In this document: piece by piece, positions 12,360-32,202 of the stretch
Position numbering within the stretch: the stretch's first letter is position 1
Layout: every line of letters starts with the position of its first letter
The notes under the pieces: generated by a model
What the model was told of the DNA's origin: nothing
What the model saw: only the letters and a program-made list of their open reading frames with translations
The model's database searches: none
Made by a program: the position numbers and the translations under genes
Source: an uncultured Alphaproteobacteria bacterium
Lineage (GTDB): Bacteria > Pseudomonadota > Alphaproteobacteria > Rs-D84
Direction of reading: 5' to 3'
DNA length: 37,676 bases
Assembly: GCA_905234465.1 (NCBI GenBank)
Contig: CAJOHU010000010.1
Span: 396-38,071 of the forward strand

Positions 12360-12536
12360 TGACAAGGCGATGCTTTGTTGGGTGTCAGAACCCATGGTAA
12401 TACTCGGTGTCCGCGGGGACATAAAACACCTCCAGCCGCGTGGGTTGGAGGGCGGCGAATATATTGAATAAGCCCACTATTTTCCGAGTATTATAGTTCT
12501 GAACCTCCAACCACTTGCTTTGTCGGGTGGTTTTTT
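12360..12536 (+). ncRNA. Structured RNA copy A (candidate new family; leader or independent sRNA)
   Basis: Closing stem TAATACTCGG (12398-12407)/CCGAGTATTA (12484-12493); hairpins TGTCC-GCGG-GGACA, CTCCAGCC-GCGTG-GGTTGGAG and GGC-GAATATATTGAATAA-GCC; terminator AACCAC...GTGGTTTTTT; paralogous to copy B. Confidence 0.75.
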
Positions 12537-12553: not shown

Positions 12554-13258
12554 ATGAAGATTTTTCTTGTGTTTATATCATTGTTGTTATCTTTGCCATG
12601 TATGGTATACGCCGCTGAGCAAACAAATCAGCCCTCAGAACAAGATATCGCTGCGGCCGCACAACAAAAATTGGAAGATGCGCGCGAAAAACAAAATTCT
12701 TTGGGTAATCGCTTGGTTAATGCCGGGGCATCTGCGGCAACGGGGTATGGGGCACGAATGGTCGCAACCGCGATGGCAGAACAGTCGGCAGATGCCAAAG
12801 CTGAATCTGATATGCGTGAATGGATTGACACAATGAAATGCGAATATGGTGACGGTCAAGTATTTAATGTTGGCACCGAAACCATTTATTTGCCGGGCGG
12901 CGATGAAATATCAGAATATGCCAAAGAATATAAATACTTAGCAGAAAAATTGAAAAAAACCAAAGCGGCATTGGGGTTAAAACCCGGCATTGAATCTGAA
13001 ACAATTTATGACCGCGCCGATTATGATTTATATTCATATAACCCCGCGGAACACCAAAGCAGTGGTAATGTATCTGTATCACGTGCATTAATGGACAGCA
13101 CCAGTGAAGACGCAATCGCATGGGCAGAACAAAAACAAGAATCTGAACAAGATAAAAACTGGGGTTTGGGTATCACCGCAATAGGCGTTTTTGGCGGTGC
13201 CGCAACAAACATTATTATTAATAACAAAGACAACAAAAATGATGATTCTGAAAAATAA
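12554..13258 (+). CDS. Secreted hypothetical protein with C-terminal Gly-rich hydrophobic segment
   Basis: RBS aaggagg; signal peptide MKIFLVFISLLLSLPCMVYA; NWGLGITAIGVFGGAATNIIINNK. Confidence 0.7.
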   Translation: MKIFLVFISLLLSLPCMVYAAEQTNQPSEQDIAAAAQQKLEDAREKQNSLGNRLVNAGASAATGYGARMVATAMAEQSADAKAESDMREWIDTMKCEYGDGQVFNVGTETIYLPGGDEISEYAKEYKYLAEKLKKTKAALGLKPGIESETIYDRADYDLYSYNPAEHQSSGNVSVSRALMDSTSEDAIAWAEQKQESEQDKNWGLGITAIGVFGGAATNIIINNKDNKNDDSEK

Positions 13259-31030: not shown

Positions 31031-31831
31031 TTGGCAATTATTATAGACCCAATTTCACCCGTCGCGTTTTCGGTTTTAGGTTTGCCAATTCGGTGGTATG
31101 CGTTGGCATATATCGCGGCGTTTGTAATTGGGTATTTTTTATTTCGTCATTTCGCGCACAACCGCAACAGCGGACTGAATATGACGCGACGCGAATTGGA
31201 CGATTTGTTTTCGTGGATAATATTGGGTGTGATTATTGGGGGACGATTGGGTTATGTGCTGTTTTATAACCCGTGGTTCTTTTTATCGCATCCATTGGAA
31301 ATATTCGCAGTATGGCACGGCGGTATGAGTTTCCATGGCGGACTGATTGGTGTTATTGCTGCGACATTTTTGTTTACCCGTTCTTGGACGCGGGGTCTAA
31401 GGGTGCTGGATTTAATATCGGTTGCGGCGCCGATAGGTTTATTTTTTGGACGTATTGCAAACTTTATAAATATAGAGGTCATGGGACGCCCCACAGATTC
31501 ACCGATTGGTGTGTTCTTTCGCGGTGTGTCCGATGTCCCGCGCCACCCAAGTCCGATTTATGAAGCATTAAGCGAAGGCGTATTGTTATTTATAATAATG
31601 TTGTACCTGTATCGGTATACAAAACTGCGTAATTATCCGGGGGCGTTGTGTGGTGCGATGGGTATGCTGTACGCGGTGTTCCGTATAATTTGCGAACAGT
31701 TTCGTTCGCCCGATATTCAGATTGGATTTTTAACATCGTGGGGATTGACAATGGGCGGTCTGTTGTCTGCGATAATGTTTTTATGCGGTGCGGGTCTGTT
31801 TTTTGCGGCGATACGCCGTTTCCATAAGTGA
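31031..31831 (+). CDS. lgt: Prolipoprotein diacylglyceryl transferase (TTG start likely)
   Basis: GGRLGYVLFYNPWFFLSHPLEIFAVWHGGMSFHGGLIG; FFGRIANFINIEVMGRPTD; FRIICEQFRSPD. Confidence 0.95.
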   Translation: MAIIIDPISPVAFSVLGLPIRWYALAYIAAFVIGYFLFRHFAHNRNSGLNMTRRELDDLFSWIILGVIIGGRLGYVLFYNPWFFLSHPLEIFAVWHGGMSFHGGLIGVIAATFLFTRSWTRGLRVLDLISVAAPIGLFFGRIANFINIEVMGRPTDSPIGVFFRGVSDVPRHPSPIYEALSEGVLLFIIMLYLYRYTKLRNYPGALCGAMGMLYAVFRIICEQFRSPDIQIGFLTSWGLTMGGLLSAIMFLCGAGLFFAAIRRFHK

Positions 31832-31966
31832 TTTTTGCGGTTTTTCACTCATTGCCCGGCATGATAACACATAAATAGATGCAAGCAATTCGTTCAGGTC
31901 CGGTTCGTATGCCGGATTTTTTACAAAAAATGTTCTGATAGTATGCAACAGTGCCATACTTGCCAT
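31781..31966 (-). CDS. Possible small protein (61 aa) downstream of structured RNA B
   Basis: ORF with GGAG RBS-like motif 7 nt before ATG; overlaps the lgt 3' end antisense. Confidence 0.35.
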   Translation of the reverse strand: MASMALLHTIRTFFVKNPAYEPDLNELLASIYVLSCRAMSEKPQKSLMETAYRRKKQTRTA

Positions 31967-31993
31967 CTTAAAGCTCCATGGTTATATTATGTT

Positions 31994-32167
31994 AATAAAA
32001 ATAACCACCCGAAATAAATTCAAAGTGGTTGGAGCCTTAACGACAATCAAGTGAATTGTTGTGCTTATTCAGTATATTCGCACACTCCAACCAATGGTTG
32101 GAGATTTAGTGTCTCTCCGGACACACTTGACAGGGCGTTAAGACCCACAGACAGAACACCTGCCTGC
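31994..32167 (-). ncRNA. Structured RNA copy B (candidate new family; leader or independent sRNA)
   Basis: Minus strand: 5' hairpin CAGGCAG-GTGTT-CTGTCTG; closing stem CTTAACG/CGTTAAG plus TCAAGTG/CACTTGA; hairpins GTGTC-CGGAGA-GACAC, CTCCAACC-ATT-GGTTGGAG, TGTGC-GAATATACTGAATAA-GCACA; terminator AACCAC...GTGGTTATTTTT. Confidence 0.75.
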
Positions 32168-32173
32168 GAAAGT

Positions 32174-32202
32174 ATCATAACATTTTATATTGAAAAAGGC
32201 AA
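32174..32202 (-). promoter_or_regulatory. Promoter of structured RNA B
   Basis: Minus-strand TTGCCT (32202-32197), 17-nt spacer, TATGAT (32179-32174). Confidence 0.65.

Follow-up and report, generated by a model that had tools for sequence, protein, structure and literature searches.

Two kinds of small antisense RNA are the described systems to which the RNA considered here is most readily compared. One is sRNA-Xcc1 (Rfam RF02221), an 88-nt RNA as seen by northern blotting along with end mapping (PMC2996969), whose relation to the symE gene that follows it has been noted as unexplained (PMC12444791). The other is the C4 RNA of phages P1 and P7 (RF01695; c4-2, RF02944), in which a closing stem surrounds two hairpins. 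C4 RNA carries antisense segments, a' and b', and is encoded ahead of the gene that it regulates, i.e., within the same operon, with C4-like RNAs being processed at their 5' ends at a GGW site (PMC5320573, PMC8198154). The Group 1 sRNAs of Acinetobacter baumannii are C4-like as well (PMC5320573), and c4-a1b1 has been listed as a C4 variant (PMC2864571).

The RNA in question, RNA B, is found in a 37,676-nt stretch of DNA, the whole of which is referred to here as the 'window'. The host, from the Candidatus Enterousia group, is a gut bacterium whose alphaproteobacterial genome is tiny (0.904 Mb). RNA B, at about 32167-31997 on the minus strand, is rather probably the 5' leader of a 61-aa ORF (31966-31781) and, as such, a transcription attenuator possessing two folds. 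Most likely, that is, it is a C4- or sRNA-Xcc1-like antisense RNA which has turned into an attenuator of transcription in cis.

RNA B, its copies and its relatives

A sequence-only reading had proposed a structured RNA on the minus strand, with promoter, stems and loop, and all of these parts were located where it had placed them. As now delimited, the features are as follows.

32174-32202, minus strand: sigma-70-type promoter (TTGCCT at 32202-32197, a 17-nt spacer, TATGAT at 32179-32174, and TG before the -10)
32145-32167, minus strand: 5' hairpin P0, GCAGGCAGG-TGTTC-TGTCTGTGG, from the MFE structure
32124-32143, minus strand: 5' extension, i.e., the target-like strand of P1, with blocks TCTTAACG and TCAAGTG pairing with the P5 region (fold plus duplex energy)
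32109-32126, minus strand: P2 hairpin, GTGTGTCC/GGAGAGACAC (fold; copy comparison)
32096-32103, minus strand: strand X, CTCCAACC, the 5' strand of the P3 of the sequence-only reading (fold, covariation)
32085-32092, minus strand: strand X', GGTTGGAG, partner of X or of X'' (covariation)
32060-32084, minus strand: P4 hairpin, TGTGC-GAATATACTGAATAA-GCACA, with its conserved GAATA..GAATAA loop at 32079-32065
32036-32058, minus strand: P5 or antisense region, hairpin CAATTCACTTGATTG plus TCGTTAAG, which in one state pairs with the 5' extension
32027-32034, minus strand: strand X'', CTCCAACC, pairing with X' or serving as the terminator's 5' arm (covariation)
31997-32030, minus strand: intrinsic terminator, AACCAC...GTGGTT ATTTTT, overlapping X'' by four bases (folding)
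31781-31966, minus strand: 61-aa ORF behind the RNA B leader, with GGAG upstream of its ATG and no Pfam family

The promoter, present just as had been described, matches the consensus at 9 of 12 positions, which is weak evidence on its own. The fold of RNA B (-65.5 kcal/mol, z = -6.3) is one that 0 of 200 shuffles were as good as. ORF61, noted earlier as lying beside the RNA, does adjoin it, but it is in fact the gene directly downstream, its ATG 60 nt from X'', and this leader position had been missed.

Within the window the loop motif, allowing up to 2 mismatches, occurs 4 times versus 0.48 expected, with only the two exact matches being real copies. A genome-wide motif search, as had been suggested, yields six exact loop matches in the 0.904-Mb genome, whereas the reversed pattern yields none. 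With these six as its basis, covariance model R1 finds seven clear copies plus a marginal eighth; R3, a broader model made afterwards, confirms a total of eight. RNA B and the window's other copy, RNA A or ‘copy A’, had been presented as two copies of one RNA, and both are genuine; given the R1 and R3 searches, they are not a pair but instead two of eight. The parts of copy A are these.

12384-12536, plus strand: copy A, with 5' extension at 12384-12407, X at 12430-12437, X' at 12443-12450 and loop at 12457-12471
12477-12496, 12505-12512 and 12509-12536, plus strand: P5, X'' and terminator, respectively, of copy A
12554-13258, plus strand: 234-aa ORF behind copy A, with a signal-peptide-like start and no confident Pfam family

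The six best copies of the genome share a common order of parts. That order is promoter, small 5' hairpin, variable strand, optional P2 (missing from copies c3 and c6), short A-rich stretch, X (CTCCAACC), X' (GGTTGGAG), P4 with loop GAATATAYTGAATAA, variable P5, X'' (CTCCAACC), intrinsic terminator beginning within X'', ribosome site, and ORF. A leader peptide within the loop region was also considered but dropped on inspection, the frames being broken and differing among copies. Matches with a single mismatch, GAATATATTGAATCA (L008-L013), are unrelated, belonging to protein-coding repeats (LEYIESTGTQYIDTG). That is, a repeated protein segment of this genome, YTQLEYIESTGTQYIDTG, encodes GAATATATTGAATCA and so mimics the motif at one mismatch; these loci are mostly near contig ends, several copies lying <500 nt from one.

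Absence of the motif from relatives had been named as the outcome that would speak against a selected RNA, and the RNA was instead refound in them. Of 34 congeners sampled, 32 have the element by R1, which detects it in further genera of the order too (up to 42 copies per genome), and R3 finds it in 177 of the order's 201 genomes and in 19 of 23 genera, the genomes surveyed being largely metagenome assemblies. Most genomes of the order, that is, have the family, frequently with dozens of copies each. In a sample of the class, isolated members turn up in further families, and named records with the motif include Candidatus Enterousia, other gut Alphaproteobacteria, and some labelled Rickettsiales. 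Three IMG/VR contigs filed as viral (L254-L256) possess the motif too. The inspected stretches of this set hold no phage genes, and a viral origin of L254 and L256 was rejected as both carry the same chromosomal-looking secreted-protein locus that looks like host DNA.

Altogether 88 units were collected and aligned. Behind 64 of these an ORF is found within 80 nt, the arrangement being promoter, RNA, intrinsic terminator and then gene (median 50 nt); X'' lies 41-56 nt ahead of the start codon (10th-90th percentile, units with an ORF). No ORF was detected within 80 nt for the other 24. Some ORF-less units are found in tandem arrays, lacking both terminator and 5' pairing, with X':X'' as their sole predicted fold; part of the family therefore is not of the leader type, stand-alone RNAs being included. 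The arrays consist of 3-6 units, spaced ~200-250 nt where adjacent, in which leader-type units are mixed with stand-alone units without 5' pairing and terminator (L114:1400-3000, L121:1200-2500, L098:1200-2100). In L114 and L121 there are also sibling units, GGGTTGGGAG...CTCCCGCCCC, that have a different hairpin (e.g., GACGGTTGCTTGCAACCGAC) in place of the GAATA..GAATAA loop and that escape detection by the model.

Exclusive pairings and the variable closing stem

The stem P3 had been described as CTCCAACC (32103-32096) with GGTTGGAG (32092-32085). That stem stands, but a third strand, CTCCAACC at 32034-32027, went unseen, one which can replace the P3 partner of GGTTGGAG and which also starts the terminator hairpin (32030-31997). 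As read from covariation, these stems form a switch, X/X'/X'' (CTCCAACC / GGTTGGAG / CTCCAACC), in which X:X' and X':X'' are mutually exclusive and both covary. Over the 88 units, 96.6% of cells are paired for X:X', with two-sided changes at all 8 pairs, and 98.1% for X':X'', with compensatory changes. Neither value was reached by any of 500 shuffles, and with one side slid the pairing of whole structures falls to 31-48%. As the alignment was fitted to X:X' plus P4, the counts for these lean in their favour, with the X':X'' helix lying outside of that model; the core structure was entered manually because automatic consensus gave just one helix. The compensatory changes that had been claimed are, by this alignment, real.

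Distant leaders (L292, L293, L137, L040) have very different X sequences, with all three strands nonetheless still in register, e.g., ATCCGTCC/GGGCGGAT/ATCCGTCC in L292 and CCTCTCGC/GGCGAGAGG/CCTCTCGCC in L293. P5 as found in the second fold is a covarying hairpin too, and P4 covaries as well. TGTGC/GCACA does indeed close the loop GAATATACTGAATAA at 32079-32065 of the minus strand. This P4 loop is strongly conserved though strand exchange does not need it, and its conservation has no explanation in a strand-exchange model. The earlier proposal, of a structured RNA under selection whose loop is conserved and whose stems covary, is borne out both by covariation and by relatives, but leader with terminator, three-strand switch, two-block closing stem and kinship to sRNA-Xcc1 were not part of that picture.

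The closing stem, TCTTAACG (32143-32136) with CGTTAAG, was correctly identified except that its second block, TCAAGTG/CACTTGA, was overlooked. Judged across the aligned units, this covarying stem is a two-block match, found family-wide, of the 5' extension to the antisense loop. The 5' extension pairs with its own P5 at a mean of -16.8 kcal/mol versus -10.1 for mismatched units (z = -25.6), with the RNA B pairing, at -18.6 kcal/mol, ranking 2 of 87 candidate partners. In an energy test with local controls, 69 of 81 units are among the best 5% of local windows, and exact two-block matching of P5 within B's lineage succeeds upstream in 69/80 units versus downstream in 5/80. Pairing of P5 with the downstream ribosome site is, in B's lineage, weak overall (p = 0.04) and real only in a few copies, e.g., c1; for RNA B itself, TTAAGGCTCC against ribosome-site GGAGCTTTAA has a local percentile of 0.107. 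When array siblings were tested for trans pairing with leaders, the outcome was negative except for L121:1383 with L121:2174, which is suggestive (rank 5 of 81).

Equilibrium folding, which leaves transcription kinetics outside of the model, predicts P(X:X') of 0.90 and P(terminator) of 0.82 for RNAs with the 5' extension, and P(X':X'') of 0.81 and P(terminator) of 0.29 for RNAs starting at X'. The corresponding predictions for RNA B are 1.00 and 0.99 with the extension and 0.98 and 0.15 without it, the core alone being predicted to fold as X':X''. What covariation together with predicted folding thus provides is what one looks for in an attenuator, conserved exclusive helices of which one removes the terminator.

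Switching of termination in RNA B may, on these modelled folds, be envisaged as follows. When OFF, the 5' extension would pair with the antisense region (P1) and X with X' (P3), with a free X'' then building the terminator (32030-31997) and transcription ending ~30 nt ahead of the gene. When ON, X' would instead pair with X'' around P4 and P5, removing the terminator's 5' arm and resulting in read-through into the gene, and this ON fold is the one that sRNA-Xcc1 has, itself a C4-like antisense RNA found in phages and mobile elements. The OFF fold is predicted to be very stable, so that ON would require a strong trigger or kinetic control. The preferred trigger would be something keeping the 5' extension or X unpaired. 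Candidates are an RNA whose antisense loop matches, a protein bound to the conserved GAATA..GAATAA loop, and 5' processing at X'.

Probable kinship with sRNA-Xcc1 and C4-type RNAs

The RNA family is matched by no Rfam model at cut-off. With gathering cut-offs of 53 bits for RF02221 and 45 bits for RF01695, a direct Rfam scan gave no match for RNA B and solely a sub-threshold sRNA-Xcc1 match for copy A. The best RF02221 scores in the host genome are 33.4 bits (whole-genome E of 1.8e-4) and 32.1, with copy A at 28.4 bits and a congener at 39.7 bits, all of them below the cut-off. Sub-threshold RF02221 matches have the same boundaries in five separate loci and, among 4227 Rfam families, only sRNA-Xcc1 repeatedly matches these loci with the right boundaries, if always sub-threshold. 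From the other direction, R3, which was built from the present elements with no sRNA-Xcc1 sequence included, finds 6 of 30 true sRNA-Xcc1 loci at the annotated position (E of 1.2e-5 to 0.003). The core, X'-P4-P5-X'', is on these searches reciprocally related to Rfam's sRNA-Xcc1. The C4 model reaches at best 14.8 bits in the host genome, below cut-off and elsewhere in that genome. As the Rfam cut-offs were tested and not reached, RNA B is not filed here as a member of either family.

The sRNA-Xcc1 and B families are alike in having a closing helix X':X'' around two hairpins, a GAATA..GAATAA internal loop, and a single-stranded TTTCTAG/TTCTGAA-type segment before CCTCC. To the same loop the sRNA-Xcc1 loci add an apical hairpin in P4, which is missing from B and the other own-genome copies inspected; it is present in L136, L139 and L291, relatives which are intermediate in form. 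RNA B, unlike sRNA-Xcc1, has the 5' extension, strand X and the terminator. They differ too in what P5 is complementary to, which with sRNA-Xcc1 is downstream, the ribosome site, whereas in B's lineage it is upstream, the 5' extension; the complementarity in B's lineage, that is, appears to have shifted from the one to the other. By exact two-block matching, 19/30 true sRNA-Xcc1 loci have a P5 that matches the downstream ribosome site, versus 1/30 with an upstream match. Base composition confounded the first sRNA-Xcc1 duplex tests, in which the upstream control scored too, and an energy test with local controls was weaker (6/30); it was exact two-block matching which separated downstream from upstream. 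In these 30 sRNA-Xcc1 loci, from other Pseudomonadota (L257-L286), the 19 matches are made by the P5 loop plus the segment after it, which are complementary to the next gene in two blocks around its Shine-Dalgarno sequence.

Several true sRNA-Xcc1 loci precede Bro-N, KilA-N, P22-type antirepressor, Rha or SymE genes, and the matches to ribosome sites suggest a C4-like control, by sRNA-Xcc1, of antirepressor, Rha and SymE genes. The comparison offers a testable mechanism for sRNA-Xcc1 as found ahead of symE (PMC12444791). One sRNA-Xcc1 locus (L266) also has, ~1.3 kb away, a c4-2 RNA, sub-threshold at 34.8 bits versus a cut-off of 41, as found by Rfam search:

1501-1585 and 2890-2958 of L266, same strand: the two RNAs of this pair

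With C4 RNA, RNA B shares the closing stem and the two hairpins, as well as a position ahead of a gene. X' starts with a GGW-type GGT, and X'' mostly has ACC/ACT/GCC/GCT after it, which is compatible with RNase P processing where the closing stem starts. The c4-a1b1 motif we take to carry upstream target strands complementary to its a' and b' segments, and upstream strands of this sort are seen in the B family (z = -25.6; 69/80 units); no model of the c4-a1b1 motif matched. B's alternative X' pairings and its terminator overlapping X'' are not among C4 features in the literature compared. The A. baumannii Group 1 RNAs, like B, are a multi-copy chromosomal family in one genome, but they are processed sRNAs with presumed trans targets rather than terminator-bearing leaders, and are of another lineage and sequence (PMC5320573). 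A distant relationship of RNA B to sRNA-Xcc1 and C4-type RNAs is probable and, given antisense loops, closing stem and a pre-antirepressor position, RNA B would be expected to work as they do.

Downstream genes and competing readings

The largest cluster of genes behind the leaders consists of small HTH-like proteins (19 units; by sequence similarity, with Pfam HTH for some members). Other genes so positioned encode secreted-protein families (10 and 5 units), small uncharacterised proteins, and a few larger proteins. The 61-aa protein has neither a Pfam family nor a toxin family match, and its predicted fold, of moderate confidence (8-sequence alignment), is two helices. A relative in another species is found behind a tandem leader pair (L122), and the 61-aa protein also resembles other K/R-N/H-P-x-Y-like small proteins, one of which is behind the host genome's own eighth copy (L040). 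Such proteins, of ~50-90 aa and with no Pfam match among those scanned, are repeatedly found behind the leader (31781-31966, L040, L122, L127, L075, L091, L104, L098).

No single-stranded part is more conserved than the P4 loop, even though it lies outside of the strand exchange, as could be expected of a classical sensing leader, i.e., a riboswitch or protein-binding attenuator in which a metabolite or protein bound to the GAATA..GAATAA loop would decide which of the two folds above forms. The many copies in a genome would then make one regulon. This is unlikely, as a switch responding to a common ligand needs no gene-specific P1/P5 pairing and there is no Rfam riboswitch match at either gathering or permissive thresholds; a riboswitch in particular was rejected since the downstream genes have no obvious pathway in common. 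Array units without ORF, terminator or 5' pairing (L114, L121, L098), along with detection of sRNA-Xcc1 as an 88-nt RNA (PMC2996969), might alternatively point to an sRNA that stands alone, acts in trans and has its 3' end at the terminator, with the downstream gene having its own promoter or being expressed by leakage. The tight 41-56 nt spacing of ORFs behind 64/88 units makes that quite unlikely, as do both the recurrence of related small proteins behind the leader in different species and the little room left for a promoter by the ~20-30 nt between terminator and start codon.

In its order of promoter, RNA, terminator and small gene, the locus also resembles type III toxin-antitoxin systems. 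RNA B accordingly could be viewed as the RNA antitoxin of a type I or III pair, with the 61-aa protein as toxin, and relatives of RNA B do precede SymE-type toxins (PMC12444791). This is very improbable as RNA B is without the internal tandem repeats of type III, the two-helix protein (8-sequence alignment) matches no toxin family, and an antisense match to the ORF's ribosome site is absent from most units (5/80 having one). A functionless mobile repeat that has recently multiplied would account for the many copies, some of them tandem, and for several of these adjoining tRNA genes (B, copy c2, copy A's gene). There is next to no chance of this, however, as the copies are alike in little beyond loop and X strands, pairings are kept by compensatory changes, with the covariation counts contradicting such a repeat, and the boundaries are promoter and terminator in an element spread over genera and families.

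To return to the two-fold attenuator, a broader reading, conceivable though doubtful, is that a phage-type antisense immunity RNA has been domesticated across the order and multiplied to tens of copies per megabase, serving as largely orthogonal, self-contained transcription switches, each having an internal copy of its antisense target. Array siblings, being without the inhibitory 5' extension, would then act as trans keys, opening matching leaders. If the attenuator reading is right, most genomes of a genome-reduced gut order (~1 Mb of DNA) would carry a large regulatory RNA family controlling small DNA-binding-like, surface and uncharacterised proteins. There would, as well, be a route from antisense RNA to cis switch, with complementarity moved upstream from the neighbour's ribosome site. 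As a separate observation, in the alphaproteobacterial family f171 (L291, L292) the three-strand leader, with changed X, is found ahead of prepilin-like genes (GRSMxEMLGxLAI).
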